A DNA stretch of 64,000 nucleotides from Nocardia asteroides (GTDB taxonomy: Bacteria; Actinomycetota; Actinomycetes; Mycobacteriales; Mycobacteriaceae). Shown piece by piece: positions 1 to 28,598 of the stretch (position 1 is the first letter of the stretch; each line of letters opens with the position of its first letter). The DNA lies in NCBI RefSeq assembly GCF_900637185.1, contig NZ_LR134352.1, positions 4,888,001 to 4,952,000 of the forward strand, given 5' to 3'. The notes below the pieces were generated by a model. That model had not been told where the DNA came from. It saw nothing but the letters and a program-made list of their open reading frames with translations, and searched no databases. The position numbers were made by a program, and so were the translations under genes.

Positions 1-941
1 AGGTAGTCCAGGGTGGTCGGCCTGCCGAGCCGGCGGGCCGCGCGCACGCAGTCCCAGGAGCCGCGCGCGGTGAGCACGGCCGGGTCGGTGATGACGGCGT
101 CGCCGTCGCCCGGCTCGGTGCGGCGCGGCGGGCGGGTGCTCATCGCGACCAGGCGCGACAGCCGGGCGCGCAGCGCGGACCGGTGGCAGATCATGTCCAC
201 GATGCCGTGCGCGAGCAGGAATTCGGCGGTCTGGAACCCGGGGGGCAGGGTCTGGCCGATGGTCTGCTGGATCACCCGCGGGCCCGCGAAGCCCAGGCGT
301 GCACCGGGTTCGGCGATGATGATGTCGGTGGAAGTGGCGAAGGAGGCGGCGACGCCGCCGTAGGTCGGGTCGGTGATGATCGAGACGGTCAGCACGCCCG
401 CGTCGTCGAGACGGCGCAGCGCACGGCTGGTCTTGGCCATCTGCATGAGCGCGAGGATGCCCTCCTGCATCCGCGCGCCACCGGAGGCGGTGACGATCAC
501 CAGCGGCGCCCGGTCGGCCAGTGCCGCTTCGGCGGCGGCGGTGACCGCCTCGCCGACGGCGCTGCCCAGGCTGCCACCGAGGAACCGGAAGTCCATGACC
601 GCCAGCACGATCGGCGTGCCGTCGACGGTGCCGCGCACGCAGCGGATCGCCTCGGGCAGACCGGTCGCCCGGCGTGCCTGCTCGGCCCGTTCCGGATAGG
701 GCTTGGTGTCGACGAAGCCGAGCGGGTCGGTGACGGTCGCCGCGGTCGCGATCGGCCGGGCCGAATCCTCGTCCAGGAGCAGGTCGACGCGCTGGTCGGC
801 GGTGAGCATGCCGTGGTCGTCGCATTCGGGGCAGACCCGGTCGGCGCGGTCGTAGCGTTTGCCGTAGACGACCGTCCGGCAGGCCGGGCACAGCAGCCAG
901 GCGGGGCCGAGGGTGGCGGTTCCGGTCTCGACGATGGTCAT
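1..941 (-). CDS. Acetyl-CoA carboxylase carboxyltransferase, beta-alpha fusion (partial)
   Basis: Transfers the carboxyl group from carboxybiotin to an acyl-CoA, giving malonyl-CoA for lipid synthesis in the cytosol. The N-terminus has a zinc ribbon (C18, C21, C37, C40; CPAC and CPEC), as in AccD, followed by the beta-type carboxyltransferase core with [10 protein letters not shown] and a FQTAEFLL stretch near residue 225. Near residue 295 the sequence [16 protein letters not shown] resembles the start of an AccA domain, so this is probably an AccD-AccA fusion. The 3' end lies outside the window. The ATG overlaps the stop of the PfaD-like gene by four bases (ATGA), so the two are translationally coupled. 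Its place at the end of the synthase operon suggests a dedicated supply of extender units (inference). Confidence 0.88.
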
Positions 942-23822: not shown

Positions 23823-24431
23823 ATGACAACCGAACAGCCGACGACCGACGACATCTGGGCGGCCGTGGCCCACGAACGCACCACCCTGCTCGACATGCTC
23901 CGAGAACTCCCCGAATCCGCCTGGGACACCGCGTCGTTGTGCGACGGATGGCGGATCCGGGACGTGGTGGCGCATCTGCTGCTGGCCACCCGGGTGACGC
24001 TCGGATCCCTGGTGGTGAACCTGGTCCGGGCCCGCGGCGACCTCGACCGGCTCATCCACGACACCGCCGTCCGCCTCGCCGATCGCGCCCCGACCACCGA
24101 CCTGCTCACCGAACTGCAGGCCACCGTCGGCTCGCGCGTCACCCCGATCGGCACGAAACCCATCGACCGGCTGATGGATCTGCTCGTCCACGGCCAGGAC
24201 ATCGCGGTCCCGCTCGGCGTCGACCGCGCGATGCCCACCCAGGCCGCCCAGTGGTCCCTCGACCGGGTCTGGACGATGGGCGTGCCGTTCCACGCCCGCT
24301 CCCGGTTCGCCGGATACGCCTTCACCGCCAGCGATACCGGATGGCGTGCCGGTACCGGCACGCCGATCACCGGGACCGCCGCGGAACTGCTGATGGTCGT
24401 CACCGGCCGAACCCCACCACCTCCGCGCTGA
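23823..24431 (+). CDS. Maleylpyruvate isomerase-family mycothiol-dependent protein (DinB-like)
   Basis: 202 residues with a GAGGAG ribosome site. The N-terminal four-helix DinB/MDMPI fold is suggested by DDIWAAVAHERTTLLDMLRE, the LCDGWRIRDVVAHLL segment (Trp-x-x-x-Asp-x-x-x-His metal-binding pattern) and LLVHGQDIAVPL (a second His). Proteins of this family use mycothiol in place of glutathione for isomerisation or detoxification. The substrate is unknown. It is divergent from and probably controlled by the MerR protein. Confidence 0.8.
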   Translation: MTTEQPTTDDIWAAVAHERTTLLDMLRELPESAWDTASLCDGWRIRDVVAHLLLATRVTLGSLVVNLVRARGDLDRLIHDTAVRLADRAPTTDLLTELQATVGSRVTPIGTKPIDRLMDLLVHGQDIAVPLGVDRAMPTQAAQWSLDRVWTMGVPFHARSRFAGYAFTASDTGWRAGTGTPITGTAAELLMVVTGRTPPPPR

Positions 24432-24833
24432 CCCGCACCCGCAGCGCCACCTTGCCGAGCGGCGCGACACCGAGACCGCGGCGCCGCGATCTGGTCAGCG
24501 GGATTCCGGCGCGGATTTGGCGGCGGGACCTCCAGGGGGATTGACGATCCCGACGGCGAACGCCACCGTTCGCCGCCGCGCTGACGGGACTGGACGTCGG
24601 TACAGGTCACGCGGCGATCGGCTGTGACGAACACCAACACCCGCCGGTGTTTCCACCGGGAAGGATCTCGGCGTGAATTAGCCGGATCGCCCGATTTTCT
24701 TGCCGGAGGAAATGACTGCGGCTACGTTACCCAACATCACGACAGCGGAAATCTGATTGTGATCCTCGCTCCCGCCGTGCACACCACACCATTTCGCGAC
24801 GGGGCGCTTTCCGATGATGCAAGGAGAATCACC
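24432..24833. other. Leader region of the first small-peptide pair
   Basis: About 400 bases without a gene. The last 110 bases are related to the leader of the second peptide pair (25620-25727), sharing a GTTAC box, a TCAC box, a GTGA box and the AAGGAGA ribosome site. The rest shows nothing recognisable. Confidence 0.6.
24726..24763. promoter_or_regulatory. Conserved leader element 1 (GTTAC / ATCAC / GTGAT)
   Basis: GTTAC at 24726, ATCAC at 24736 and GTGAT at 24759, about 108 bases before the first peptide start. The same ordered boxes occur before the duplicated unit at 25627-25660. The GTTAC plus GTCAC direct-repeat look resembles MtrA-type response-regulator boxes; this is inference. Confidence 0.45.
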
Positions 24834-24947
24834 ATGGGTTCATTGACCGAGTTGATGATGGCCGCTATTGCGGGAATAGGTTCCGCGGCCGAGGGCGACG
24901 GCCTGCTCGCCGTGTTCCTGGGCTCGGTCGAAGCCTTCTTCCCGTAA
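24834..24947 (+). CDS. Small acidic amphipathic peptide A1 (37 aa)
   Basis: The peptide starts MGSLTELMMAAIAGIGSAAE and ends VFLGSVEAFFP. It has four acidic and no basic residues and no signal peptide. A strong AAGGAGA ribosome site lies nine bases upstream. A paralogue (A2, 25728) shares 31 of 37 residues, and its partner peptide B1 follows 42 bases later. The size, acidity and Gly/Ser/hydrophobic pattern resemble PorA/PorH channel peptides of Corynebacterium, which are exported without a signal peptide and O-mycoloylated on Ser. A mycoloyltransferase gene follows the cluster. A two-peptide bacteriocin is the main alternative. Expression is well supported; function is inference. Confidence 0.8.
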   Translation: MGSLTELMMAAIAGIGSAAEGDGLLAVFLGSVEAFFP

Positions 24948-24989
24948 ACAATTCACCGAACTGATTCTCGACACCGAAGGAGAAGGCAC

Positions 24990-25106
24990 ATGGGATCTCT
25001 CTACGAATTGCTGGAAACCGGCGCGGGCAGCCTCAGCGATGCCGTCCTGCCGTTCGTGCAGGCCCTGATCACGGTCAGCGGCGGCACACCGACGCCGGGC
25101 AAGTAG
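24990..25106 (+). CDS. Small peptide B1 (38 aa), partner of A1
   Basis: The peptide starts MGSLYELLETGAGSLSDAV and ends SGGTPTPGK. It has three acidic residues and one C-terminal Lys, a hydrophobic middle and no signal peptide. A GAAGGAG ribosome site lies upstream. Its duplicate B2 (25911) differs at only two residues, although about nine codons differ synonymously, which shows purifying selection on the protein. It shares the MGSL start with peptide A, so the two types may be exported or modified in the same way. It is followed by a strong hairpin. Confidence 0.8.
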   Translation: MGSLYELLETGAGSLSDAVLPFVQALITVSGGTPTPGK

Positions 25107-25123
25107 CACCACCGAGCAGGAGC

Positions 25124-25153
25124 CGGGGGCGGGCCGCGAACGGTCCGCCCCCG
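25124..25153 (+). terminator. Hairpin closing the first peptide pair
   Basis: A 13-bp GC-rich stem (one G-T pair) with a CGAA loop begins 18 bases after the B1 stop. A closely similar stem follows the second pair, so each pair seems to be a separate transcription unit. Confidence 0.7.
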
Positions 25154-25727
25154 ACGCGTTTCCGCATTCCCCACATCACCGTCGATAGCTTTCATACATG
25201 AATTTCGAACGGCGTCGAGACGGAACCGAAACGACGATTCACGGCCCGATGCCCCCAGAAAAAGGGGCACACATGCCGGTCGGCAATCGACCAGGCACTC
25301 CTAGTGCACCCGCGGGCGCTCGCCACCGCAGCGTTCCCACCCGCACGCCACTCCGGCCCCCGAGCCGGTACGCCGAACCCTCGATCGTGCGCAGATCACA
25401 GCCACTCATCCCATGAAATCCAGCCCCCTGGACACATCGATGACAGACGTCCTCGTTCGCCGCGAAAGACGGCTCGACTGTGCCAGACAGTCGCCGTTAC
25501 CACAGGTCACACGTAGTCCGGAGGGGCACCGGGGCAATCGTCAAGCAGCTTCCATCAGGAAAGAAAAGAATGAACGAATCACGCTGAGTGAAACACCGGC
25601 TTGCCACACAATGGGAGCAGCGATACGTTACCGGCGTCACAGCAGGAAGCTGACTGTGACCCATCCCCCGCACCCGGGCTGCCCCTGGTTTCCGGGGGTG
25701 TACGACGACCACGCAAGGAGATAGACC
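25154..25727. other. Spacer and leader of the second small-peptide pair
   Basis: About 570 bases with no gene I can support. Short open frames exist but lack ribosome sites and paralogues. The last 110 bases carry the leader element conserved with the first unit. Confidence 0.55.
25627..25660. promoter_or_regulatory. Conserved leader element 2 (GTTAC / GTCACAG / CTGTGAC)
   Basis: GTTAC at 25627 is followed by GTCACAG at 25636 and CTGTGAC at 25654, which form a perfect 7-bp inverted repeat with 11 bases between. It lies about 100 bases before peptide A2 and matches the order of boxes before peptide A1. Confidence 0.5.
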
Positions 25728-25841
25728 ATGGGTTCACTGACCGAGATCGTGCAGGCGGCGATCGCCGGCCTCGGGTCCGCGGCCGAGGGCGACAACCTGC
25801 TCACCGTATTCCTCGGCTCGGTGGAAGCGTTCTTCCCGTAG
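25728..25841 (+). CDS. Small acidic amphipathic peptide A2 (37 aa)
   Basis: Paralogue of A1: MGSLTEIVQAAIAGLGSAAE at the start and the same VFLGSVEAFFP end. The six substitutions are mostly conservative and keep the acidic residues (E6, E20, D22, E33). AAGGAGA precedes the ATG. B2 follows 69 bases later. The duplication of the whole A-B unit suggests either gene dosage or assembly of mixed oligomers (inference). Confidence 0.8.
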   Translation: MGSLTEIVQAAIAGLGSAAEGDNLLTVFLGSVEAFFP

Positions 25842-25910
25842 ATCACCGCGCACTCCCGCCCGACCCCCGAATTGTCGGGGCATATTCACCCGAATTCTCA
25901 GGAGCGATAA

Positions 25911-26027
25911 ATGGGTTCCCTCTACGAACTGCTGGAAACCGGCGCAGGCAGTCTCAGCGACGCCGCGCTGCCGTTCATCCAGGCGCTGATCACCGTCAGC
26001 GGCGGCACACCCACACCGGGTAAGTAA
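25911..26027 (+). CDS. Small peptide B2 (38 aa), partner of A2
   Basis: Identical to B1 except Ala for Val at position 19 and Ile for Val at position 22. It ends SGGTPTPGK. A CAGGAG ribosome site lies upstream. The gene is followed by a perfect hairpin and then the mycoloyltransferase gene 112 bases downstream. Confidence 0.8.
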   Translation: MGSLYELLETGAGSLSDAALPFIQALITVSGGTPTPGK

Positions 26028-26043
26028 TTCGTCGCCGATGTAC

Positions 26044-26072
26044 CGGGGCGGGTCGTTCCACGACCCGCCCCG
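26044..26072 (+). terminator. Hairpin between peptide B2 and the mycoloyltransferase gene
   Basis: GGGGCGGGTCGT and its perfect complement make a 13-bp stem with a three-base loop, 16 bases after the B2 stop. It is probably a terminator or attenuator that limits read-through from abundant peptide mRNA into the enzyme gene. Confidence 0.7.
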
Positions 26073-26139
26073 CCGTGCGCGAACAATGGCGCGAAATCCA
26101 TTTCTGTCGTTTCCGAGAAGTCAGCAGGTTCGTATCACC

Positions 26140-27174
26140 GTGAACAACCAAGTCCTCCGCGGAATCATGTCGGCCGTCTGCGCCGCCGCACTGGCCACCA
26201 CGCCCGTCGTCGTCGACGCGTACGCCGCGGCCGACCCCGGCGCCCGGCTGGTGAGCCGGACCCAGACCGGCCAGACCGTCGACATCAGCGTGTACTCGCC
26301 CTCGATGGACCGCACGATCGCGCTGCGGGTGCTGCGCCCCGCCGACACCACGACGCCGGCGCCCACGCTGTATCTGCTCAACGGCGCCGGAGGCGGCGAG
26401 GATTCGGCCAACTGGCCGGGGCAGACGGACGCGGCCGGGTTCTTCGCGGACAAGCACGTCAATGTCGTCATCCCGATGGAGGGCGCGTTCAGCTACTACA
26501 CCGACTGGCGGGAACCCGACGCCGGTCTGGCGAAGAATCTCGAGAACAACGGCCACAACATGTGGACCACCTTCCTCACCCGGGAACTGCCGCCGGTGAT
26601 CGACGCGGCCTTCGCCACCACCGGCGACAACGCCCTGGCCGGCATCTCGATGGCGGGCACCTCGGTGCTGGACCTGGCCATCCAGGCGCCGCAGCTGTAC
26701 CGCAGCGTCGCGGCCTACAGCGGGTGCGCGATGACCAGCGACCCGATCGGGCGGGCCTTCGTCTCGCTCGTCGTGCGGCTGGGCGGCGGCGATGTCGAGA
26801 ACATGTGGGGCCCGGTCACCGACGCGGCCTGGCGCGAGCACGACCCGTACGTCCAGGCGCACCGGCTGCCCGACATCCCGATCTACATCTCCAGCGGCAG
26901 CGGCCTGCCCGGCGCGCACGACACCCTCGCCAATCCGCGGGTGCACATCAACGGCAAGAACCCCCAGTCGATCCTGACCAACCAGATGCTCGTCGGCGGC
27001 GGTATCGAGGCGGCGTCCGCGTACTGCACGGCGAGCATGGGCAGGCGCGCCCAGGAGCTGGGTCGCACGAACATCACCGTCAACGTCCGCCCGACCGGCA
27101 CCCACTCGTGGGGCTACTGGGAAGACGACCTGCACGTGTCGTGGCCGATGCTGGCGACCTCACTGGGCCTGTGA
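26140..27174 (+). CDS. Secreted mycoloyltransferase (antigen 85/FbpA-like)
   Basis: About 344 residues from the GTG at 26140, with signal peptide (MSAVCAAALATTPVVVDAYA). The nucleophile elbow is AGISMAGTSVLD (Ser near 170), matching the SMAGSS motif of antigen 85, and the C-terminal NVRPTGTHSWGYWEDDL holds the catalytic His next to Ser-Trp as in that family. Such enzymes transfer mycolic acids between trehalose lipids, arabinogalactan or, in Corynebacterium MytC, small membrane proteins. It lies directly downstream of the duplicated small-peptide genes and overlaps the WS/DGAT gene by four bases. An in-frame ATG at 26086 is possible but lacks a ribosome site. The acceptor is unknown. Confidence 0.88.
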   Translation: MNNQVLRGIMSAVCAAALATTPVVVDAYAAADPGARLVSRTQTGQTVDISVYSPSMDRTIALRVLRPADTTTPAPTLYLLNGAGGGEDSANWPGQTDAAGFFADKHVNVVIPMEGAFSYYTDWREPDAGLAKNLENNGHNMWTTFLTRELPPVIDAAFATTGDNALAGISMAGTSVLDLAIQAPQLYRSVAAYSGCAMTSDPIGRAFVSLVVRLGGGDVENMWGPVTDAAWREHDPYVQAHRLPDIPIYISSGSGLPGAHDTLANPRVHINGKNPQSILTNQMLVGGGIEAASAYCTASMGRRAQELGRTNITVNVRPTGTHSWGYWEDDLHVSWPMLATSLGL

Positions 27175-28598
27175 GCGCCGAATTGCGGGTGGGCACCCGA
27201 CAATTGAGCCCGCGCGACGCGGTGTTCGTCTACGACGAGACCGACCGGCACCTGTCGAACATCGTCGCGGTGTACTTCGCCGAGGCCACCGGTCGGCCCG
27301 CGCTCACCCGTGCCGACGTGCTCGACTGGGCCCGGTCCGTCCTCGGGCACTCCGCCCTGTTCCACCGGCGGTTGCAGCGGGTGCCCCTGGATCTGGACCT
27401 GCCGTACTGGGTGCCGGACCCCGGCCTGACGGTGGGCGACCACGTGTGGCTGGACCGGCCCGGGGCGGGTACCTGGGACGAGGCCCGCGCGCGGATCGCC
27501 GAGATCACCGCCACCCGGATGGATCTGCGCAAGCCGCCGTGGGAGATCCATGTGCTCGATCGCGTCACCGGCGTTCCCGCCATGGCGGAGCACACCACCA
27601 TCGTGGTGCTGAAGTTCCACCACAGCGTGGGCGACGGCGTCGCGACCCGGGCGCTGGAACGCAAGCTGTTCGGCACCGAACCGGCGCCGGCGATCCGGCT
27701 CGACGACCCCGCTCCCCTGGCGACCGCCGCACGGACCGCGGCCTCGCTGCTGACCCAGCCCGTGCGCTTCCTCACGGGACTGCGCCGGGCGAGCGCGGCC
27801 CAGGAGGAGTTGCGCGGCCTGATCGAGTCGGGCACGGTGCACGAGCCCGTCGCGCTGCGCCCGGCGACCCGGTTCAACCGGGACATCCACGCGGCGACGA
27901 CCTTTCACCTGCTGCCGCTGCCGATGGCGGAGATCCGCGCGGCGACAGCGGCGGCGCCGCGGCGGGTCACGATCAACGACCTCATGCTCACCACGATCGG
28001 CGGCGCCCTGGCGGCCTACCTCGCCGAGCACGAGGAGCTGCCCGCCGAATCACTGGCCGCCATGGTGCCGATGTCGATGCGCGGTGTCGCCGAATGGGAT
28101 TCGGCCAATCAGCTCACCCAGATGATCGTGGACCTGCACACCGACATCGCCGACCCGATCGAGCGGCTCGCCGCCGTGCAGCGCTCCGCGACCTGGGCCA
28201 AACAGCGCACCGCCGATCCGGTGGTACTGCGCGGCGACCGCAGGGTGGAGACCGCGCCCGCGCTGCTGTTGCGCGCGGCCGGGTGGGCCCGCGCGCAGCG
28301 CCGCTTCGACGACGCCGCGTCGGTTCCGTTGTGCAACACCACGATCAGCAATGTGCCACCGGTGACCGACGCCCTCGCGTTCTGCGGCAGGCCGGTCCGC
28401 CGGGCGGTCGGCTCGCTACCGGTGCTCGACGGCGACGGGCTGCGTCATCTGATCAGCTCGCAGGGCGCGGAACTGGTCGTCGCGGTGACGACGAACGCGG
28501 CGATGATGCCGGACCCGGAGCACTACGGCGAGCTGCTGCTGCGCTCCTTCCGAACCCTCGCCGCCGCGCTGGGCGCGCCCGCCGGGGCGGGTCACTGA
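27171..28598 (+). CDS. Wax ester synthase/diacylglycerol acyltransferase (WS/DGAT)
   Basis: 475 residues from a GTG overlapping the mycoloyltransferase stop (GTGA). The acyltransferase motif is KFHHSVGDGVA (HHxxxDG, near residue 150), and the C-terminal domain has TINDLMLTTIGGALAAYL and NTTISNVPP, all typical of WS/DGAT. These enzymes join fatty acyl-CoA to diacylglycerol or long alcohols. Tight coupling to a secreted mycoloyltransferase is unusual. The 3' end overlaps the convergent FhuF-like gene by seven bases. Confidence 0.9.
   Translation: MSAELRVGTRQLSPRDAVFVYDETDRHLSNIVAVYFAEATGRPALTRADVLDWARSVLGHSALFHRRLQRVPLDLDLPYWVPDPGLTVGDHVWLDRPGAGTWDEARARIAEITATRMDLRKPPWEIHVLDRVTGVPAMAEHTTIVVLKFHHSVGDGVATRALERKLFGTEPAPAIRLDDPAPLATAARTAASLLTQPVRFLTGLRRASAAQEELRGLIESGTVHEPVALRPATRFNRDIHAATTFHLLPLPMAEIRAATAAAPRRVTINDLMLTTIGGALAAYLAEHEELPAESLAAMVPMSMRGVAEWDSANQLTQMIVDLHTDIADPIERLAAVQRSATWAKQRTADPVVLRGDRRVETAPALLLRAAGWARAQRRFDDAASVPLCNTTISNVPPVTDALAFCGRPVRRAVGSLPVLDGDGLRHLISSQGAELVVAVTTNAAMMPDPEHYGELLLRSFRTLAAALGAPAGAGH

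Follow-up and report, generated by a model that had tools for sequence, protein, structure and literature searches.

Two tandem peptide units precede a mycoloyltransferase gene

We analyzed a 64,000-nucleotide stretch of DNA (the window) from the 6.98-Mb single-contig genome of Nocardia asteroides, where two tandem A-B units encode peptides of 37, 38, 37, and 38 amino acids (A1, B1, A2, and B2) and a gene for a mycoloyltransferase, MYT, follows on the same strand. An earlier note on this DNA had proposed that the peptides are an unannotated equivalent of the corynebacterial outer-membrane peptides PorA and PorH, O-mycoloylated by a transferase dedicated to them. The genes are:

24834..24947, + strand: A1, gene for an acidic 37-residue peptide
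24990..25106, + strand: B1, gene for an acidic 38-residue peptide
25728..25841, + strand: A2, gene for an acidic 37-residue peptide, predicted to form a single helix (residues 2-35)
25911..26027, + strand: B2, gene for an acidic 38-residue peptide, with a predicted helix (4-29) and then a Ser30-Gly-Gly tail
26140..27174, + strand: MYT, a MytC-type mycoloyltransferase with a signal-peptide-like start and the triad Ser170, Glu290, His322

All four peptide open reading frames (ORFs) start with ATG GGx TCx behind an AGGAG-type ribosome site. A1 and A2 have a charge of −4 and an isoelectric point (pI) of 4.05, B1 and B2 a charge of −2 and a pI of 4.14, and, as judged by eye, none of the peptides carries a signal peptide; ORFs, charge, and pI thus agree with the small acidic peptides that the earlier note had described. 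Between A1 and A2, 17 codons differ, 6 of them with a change of residue, while B1 and B2 differ at 13 codons, where the two residue changes counted earlier were recovered but the synonymous differences number 11 rather than about nine. The ratio of nonsynonymous to synonymous divergence (dN/dS, Nei-Gojobori) amounts to 0.119/0.591 = 0.20 for the A copies and 0.031/0.583 = 0.05 for the B copies, which bears out the selection on the protein that the note had claimed. Because the copies diverge at synonymous sites and little at others, and because relatives, too, have a promoter, an inverted repeat on the 5′ side, and a hairpin 3′ of B (see below), A and B are real genes; together they are a genuine, selected two-peptide family.

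This family has so far gone without a name. Pfam gave no match for A or B, and NCBIfam none of relevance (a single isomerase model against A2, at 0.23). There were likewise no matches in Rfam (positions 24400-26300), in PADLOC (A2, B2, and MYT), or in PHROGs for A2 and B2, MYT matching one PHROGs family of unknown function. Among 462 candidates from a set of 5.8 billion proteins, 48 were relatives of A, labeled "hypothetical" or "uncharacterized" where they were named at all, as expected if the peptides are unannotated. The A profile matches B, and the B profile A, only weakly (best values 0.026 and 0.0037; 34% over 10 columns with hhalign), and on this sequence likeness A and B may share an ancestor.

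Promoter, inverted repeat, and hairpin recur around the peptide genes

Each unit in the window is flanked by the same kinds of elements:

24700..24728, + strand: promoter-like site of unit 1 (TTGCCG, 17 nt, TACGTT)
24736..24763, + strand: inverted repeat ATCAC...GTGAT of unit 1, close to where the transcript would be expected to start
25124..25153, + strand: GC-rich stem-loop 3′ of B1, without a T-run (z = −2.1 against mononucleotide shuffles)
25601..25629, + strand: promoter-like site of unit 2 (TTGCCA, 17 nt, TACGTT)
25636..25660, + strand: inverted repeat GTCAC...GTGAC of unit 2, in the same pattern as in unit 1
26044..26072, + strand: GC-rich stem-loop between B2 and MYT (z = −4.7)

Of the 66 distinct A genes, 41 have the promoter pattern TTGN-19..21-TAYRTT in front of them, compared to a mean of 0.26 and a maximum of 2 of 66 in 100 shuffles. 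Among the 42 upstream regions with a TAYRTT box and then RTYAC, 33 contained the full inverted repeat RTYAC...GTRAY (500 shuffles: mean 1.8, maximum 6), placed about where the transcript would begin. Of the 63 distinct B genes, 49 are followed by a stem-loop with z below −2 (mononucleotide shuffles; family mean −3.5), and five of the 14 exceptions were inner B genes with another A gene next (loci L004, L005, L033, L038, and L073). Inspected by eye, these stems keep their pairing although the sequence varies between loci. Such a layout of promoter, A, B, hairpin, and transferase would yield much peptide and less enzyme.

The peptides travel with the transferase within Nocardia

Profiles of A and B and the MYT protein were searched in 150 genomes of the genus, that of the window included. 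We counted A matches of 7e-6 or better per genome (54 genomes were listed, and G110 at 0.008 was dropped), B matches of 2e-11 or better (which excluded 11 weak matches among the 63 listed at 0.1), and MYT matches at a cut-off of 1e-110 (55 listed; paralogues scored 1e-104 or weaker). On these terms A occurs in 53, B in 52, and MYT in 55 of the 150 genomes, and about two thirds of the genus is without the A/B system. A is paired with B in 52 of its 53 genomes, and MYT is present in all 52 genomes that have both peptides (Fisher 3.5e-37, uncorrected for relatedness, as the co-occurrence counts take related species as independent).

Gene order points the same way. Twenty loci, 19 from the genus and one from another, were picked for variety among genomes with a B hit, and in 20 of 20 the order on one strand is A, B, and a MYT of the window's type. 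The number of pairs per locus ranges from one to three. In the window's own genome, strong matches to A and B are confined to this locus, and in a scan of named genomes all 38 B loci were from Nocardia. Gene order and co-occurrence thus support that A and B are tied to a MytC-type transferase in Nocardia.

Some fragments were also seen. Genome G001 (L223, 8900-9028) has an orphan A-like frame, with no B or MYT found within 18 kb, and G128 has, immediately 5′ of MYT, a frame of 30 residues with a score of 0.11 against A, perhaps a remnant. Weak matches to the B profile (~0.001, positions 7-34) lie in 80-residue frames of three genomes (G030:C3:270736-270819, G031:C1:1179683-1179766, and G129:C18:298649-298732), possibly representing another small protein that is related by sequence.

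Other genera carry the pair with one of two transferase types

Across 301 genomes of the family (the genus itself included), A was detected at 0.001 or better in 41, from five genera, 21 of these outside Nocardia. The 20 non-Nocardia loci that we inspected comprise all of these hits but one, G395, which was already among the first-chosen loci. A, B, and a mycoloyltransferase stand in this order in 18 of the 20; of the other two, L260 shows no transferase in the 785 bases of contig that remain after B, and L268 has an A-like frame only. The search for peptide pairs in relatives that the earlier note had called for therefore recovered them in 52 of 150 Nocardia genomes and, with a transferase, in 18 of 20 loci elsewhere.

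Two types of transferase occur at these loci, namely the window's (59-69% identity) and a second (38-43% identity to the window's MYT), so that the peptides always lie beside a mycoloyltransferase in these 18 loci, though not always one of the long-loop type. Seven of the 18 loci (L254, L255, L257, L263, L264, L266, and L269) contain a complete window-type MYT, each time with a second-type gene after it. Overall, a second-type gene sits at the same place in L254-L258, L261-L267, and L269-L273, after or instead of the window's type. In L259 and L265 the window-type MYT matches piecewise, as if decayed, beside an intact-looking second-type gene.

One related genus has A itself within longer open frames of 64-118 residues and, beyond the transferase, extra short frames starting MGS or MAS (profile E from 4e-5 to 0.04; L266 8861-9172; L269 8724-8879 and 9118-9240; L270 7429-7539; L271 8154-8381; L273 2831-2941), which from their sequence are possibly a third peptide type. 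For the search outside the family, only the B profile was used (the broader A profile was confined to the family); in 397 genomes of the order, the strongest match that it gave beyond the family, at 6e-4, fell within a frame of 707 residues, and none was counted. From the names Nocardia, Rhodococcus, and Speluncibacter, we read the family as a mycolic-acid group.

MYT belongs to an expanded set of mycoloyltransferases

The MYT ORF spans 26038-27174, with a likely GTG start at 26140 that gives a protein of 344 amino acids. It matches Pfam Esterase at 4.4e-34, its closest solved relatives are Cmt1/MytC (8qhf and 4h18, about 1.5e-65), and the triad Ser170-Glu290-His322 and the loop could be read off the alignments. 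Sequence match, Ser-Glu-His triad, and an N-terminus that by eye resembles a signal peptide place MYT in the antigen 85/mycoloyltransferase family, as the earlier note had it. The long loop characteristic of MytC is present as well: The aligned stretch measures 55 residues in MYT, compared to 56 in MytC, 43 in MytA, and 36 in Ag85A and Ag85C. In a phylogenetic tree, window-type MYT proteins form a clade (0.93) that is joined at 1.00 with paralogues from the window's genome (L134, L137, and L142), while MytC is placed apart, weakly, with nodes around it at 0.35-0.77. The second-type transferases make up a clade of their own (1.00) within a group (0.99) to which MytC and MYT also belong and from which MytA is absent.

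The window's genome contains 24 matches to PF00756, a large mycoloyltransferase expansion, and nine of its proteins besides MYT score 1e-70 or better against MYT, with 10 scored out of 33 candidates. Of 31 paralogue loci (9 from the same genome, covering part of its paralogues, and 22 from related genomes), none carries a peptide resembling A or B in the 1.5 kb upstream, as judged with a filter for composition, start codon, and Shine-Dalgarno score that a peptide of another build could escape; an unrelated short frame lay upstream in 3 of the 31. MYT is thus one of an expanded set of transferases, and its peptide neighbors mark it out.

Next to MYT lies a further gene:

27174..28598, + strand: WS/DGAT-family acyltransferase (NCBIfam TIGR02946, 4e-94), overlapping the MYT stop codon

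A gene of this family neighbors the peptides in 19 of the 20 first-chosen loci (L073-L092) and is found at more than 300 bits in 10 of the 20 loci of other genera (L254-L273), on either strand.

Invariant serines and predicted helices

Serine counts were taken from profile alignments without a filter on the start motif; an earlier, filtered set (30-50 amino acids, start codon followed by [GNAST][ST]) had Ser3 partly built in and lost the longer A variants of one genus. In A, Ser17 and Ser31 are present in 66 of 66 distinct rows and Ser3 in 64 (the other 2 being unaligned). In B, Ser30 occurs in all 64 distinct rows, Ser3 in 63 (1 unaligned), and Ser14 in 55. AlphaFold2 models of the monomers predict one helix for A2 (residues 2-35; mean predicted local distance difference test score, pLDDT, of 85.8 in the best of five models and 73-75 in the others) and, at low confidence (mean pLDDT 66.4), a helix at residues 4-29 of B2 with Ser30-Gly-Gly in the tail. 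For each family, A and B, the helical moment exceeded that of 295 of 300 column permutations.

The N-terminus of ghrelin reads GSSFL. The motif around mycoloylation sites in Corynebacterium glutamicum has been compared with it, and these sites are mostly serines in flexible Ser/Gly/Ala stretches without a strict consensus (PMC11066868). A published model places Ser15, the acceptor of PorA, in a loop with helices on either side (PMC11927696). Because the mapped sites lie in flexible Ser/Gly-rich stretches, Ser30 of B and Ser3 of both peptides would be the best acceptor candidates. In a bolder form of the analogy, Met would be removed and the shared N-terminal Gly-Ser (Ser3) then acylated, like the GSSFL of ghrelin.

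A model of mycolate-anchored peptides and its alternatives

Our preferred reading, to which we give a probability of roughly 0.63, is that A and B are O-mycoloylated peptides of the mycomembrane, modified by the neighboring MYT and working like PorA, PorH, and ProtX. Promoters of their own would drive abundant synthesis of A and B, which would then leave the cytoplasm as PorA, PorH, and ProtX do. Secreted MYT would then esterify the invariant serines with mycolic acid, with trehalose monomycolate as the donor. Held by the lipid, both helices would sit in the mycomembrane; there the two peptides would assemble into a hetero-oligomer, most likely either a small channel of helices or a surface structure linked to the wall. 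The putative modification itself is supported by analogy only, through the invariant serines, the MytC-type loop, and the triad. As the arrangement recurs in many related species, A and B make good candidates for outer-membrane peptides with a lipid anchor in bacteria other than Corynebacterium. A fuller version, in which Nocardia and its Rhodococcus relatives have separately evolved O-mycoloylated peptide pairs that travel with a transferase gene and form a mycolate-anchored helical channel, falls somewhat short of an even chance in our estimate. Pore activity is the weakest step, and we regard it as somewhat doubtful.

Several observations weigh against our preferred reading. The invariant serines show no switch between TCN and AGY codons, their codons varying among synonyms only, and the helical moment of the single peptides is unexceptional (shuffle fractions 0.03-0.11). 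Profile comparisons reveal no sequence relation of A or B to PorA or PorH. On the enzyme side, the tree does not establish MYT as the MytC orthologue, and the loop does not single MYT out, because 11 rows from the same genome also have 48-52 residues in that stretch. In other genera, the window-type MYT is in pieces in 2 of the 18 complete loci and was not found in 9, which have the second type only, and all second-type rows of the tree show 44 residues in the loop stretch, near the 43 of MytA. MYT also occurs without A and B in 3 of its 55 Nocardia genomes (G046, G128, and G153, at 80-83% identity), where 18 kb around MYT (L220, L221, and L222) contained no A, B, or WS/DGAT gene and where MYT may have other substrates. 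The dedicated transferase of the earlier note accordingly stands as likely within Nocardia, given the exceptions just named, and gives way in the nine second-type loci elsewhere. Lastly, MspA-type porins are present in 150 of 150 Nocardia genomes, with 10 matches in that of the window.

This ubiquity is what makes a ProtX-like surface role a serious rival. Here, A and B would be modified by MYT but form no pore, acting as wall-linked surface or tether peptides, with a copy number perhaps driven by phages that use them as receptors. ProtX is equal in length to B, at 38 residues (PMC5310785), it and PorH appear to be wall-linked (PMC12632848), and phage Cog requires ProtX to adsorb (PMC9671496); the one to three pairs per locus would also fit. 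A ProtX-like role has to contend, however, with two distinct peptides that are paired in nearly every genome with A, as PorA and PorH are, and we put its chance well short of even.

Alternatively, A and B could serve MYT as helpers, i.e., as an activator or as plugs of the acceptor site, rather than as substrates. The strict linkage between the peptides and MYT would suit such a role, as would a model of a helical PorA hook in the active site of MytC (PMC11927696), but the serines that are invariant in both peptides speak against it, and a stem-loop placed between B and MYT hints that peptide is made in excess of enzyme, so we consider this role improbable. Slightly more improbable still is a secreted surfactant or two-peptide antibacterial (PSM- or class IIb-like), with MYT modifying envelope glycolipids only. 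The peptides are indeed short, weakly amphipathic pairs without a Sec signal, but they are acidic, show by eye no double-glycine leader, and have no peptide exporter among the four neighbors scanned with Pfam (one being a FecCD-type importer permease), and this role leaves the 52 of 52 linkage with MYT unexplained. Genes for small hydrophobic toxins of type I, accompanied by structured RNAs, are very unlikely, since short ORFs, a conserved promoter, and hairpins are offset by two different acidic peptides linked to MYT and by the lack of Rfam and PADLOC matches noted above.

In the fuller version given above, A and B would be the first natural targets of protein mycoloylation beyond Corynebacterium. 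They would add an alpha-helical kind of outer-membrane protein where the described porins are MspA-type barrels, from a gene class that was left nameless owing to its small size. The locus provides concrete peptides plus an enzyme for many species, and the linkage and the invariant serines show where to look. In the open-access literature, among the matches listed (title and start of the abstract; subscription papers lie mostly outside), no paper treats Nocardia or Rhodococcus peptides that are mycoloylated or resemble PorA/PorH. Part of the enzyme side is already known: PMC5310785 cites a study, reportedly by Huc in 2013, that dealt in C. glutamicum with mytC orthologues from Nocardia, Gordonia, and Rhodococcus.

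Comparison with known systems

The claim of an equivalent of PorA and PorH finds no support in the sense of homology, as profiles and NCBIfam models fail and the corynebacterial genes are not beside a transferase. The NCBIfam model pora_1 misses A1, B1, A2, and B2 (E up to 1), and also B2 and a B and an A peptide from relatives at E up to 10, while it matches C. glutamicum PorA (P0020) at 7e-24; hhalign against P0020 finds nothing, and an apparent likeness of the start of B to PorA was not significant. No solved relative of PorA was found (best 0.55). The models porH_1 and porH_2 match none of the A/B peptides given, the latter recognizing P0001 at 2e-9, and hhalign with a PorH profile built from database proteins yielded probabilities of 0.3 and 0.1%.

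In layout, the likeness to PorA/PorH (Transporter Classification 1.B.34 and 1.B.59) with MytC/Cmt1 is closer: Both have tandem, tiny, acidic peptides, which in A and B are helical by prediction, plus a MytC-type enzyme. In being small, acidic, and tandem and, by eye, without signal peptide, the window's peptides of 37-38 residues resemble the PorA/PorH superfamily, whose members usually measure 40-60 residues and often come as paired genes. PorA measures 45, PorH 57, and ProtX 38 residues, all without a classical signal sequence and with mytC-dependent modification (PMC5310785, PMC11927696), and PorA is as short as 37 residues in C. urealyticum and 40 in C. jeikeium, where it forms homo-oligomeric pores (PMC5944148). 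A and B differ in their conserved MGS start and the SGG motif of B, and in that only here the transferase gene adjoins the peptides and the units are duplicated. In Corynebacterium, the porin genes are situated between groEL2 and ppk2 and have no transferase gene next to them (PMC5944148), unlike the A/B locus. ProtX (cg2875) of C. glutamicum, likened here by its description, resembles B in length, in lacking a signal sequence, and would do so in its mytC-dependent mycolate, but it is described as a single peptide, not a pair.

Nocardia also has NfpA/NfpB, again two genes, whose products form a hetero-oligomeric cell-wall channel. In contrast to A and B, NfpA/NfpB and the other MspA-type porins of Nocardia and Rhodococcus (PF09203) are Sec-secreted beta-barrel proteins of ~20 kDa (PMC5310785, PMC9233653, PMC4827864). 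For the enzyme, MytC moves mycolate from trehalose monomycolate onto PorA (PMC11927696), and a loop thought to define peptide specificity sets it apart from other mycoloyltransferases (PMC5310785). While MYT groups with paralogues of its own genome in a supported clade and MytC falls elsewhere, weakly, MYT shares with MytC/Cmt1 (4h18, 8qhf) the sequence match, the catalytic residues, and this long loop.

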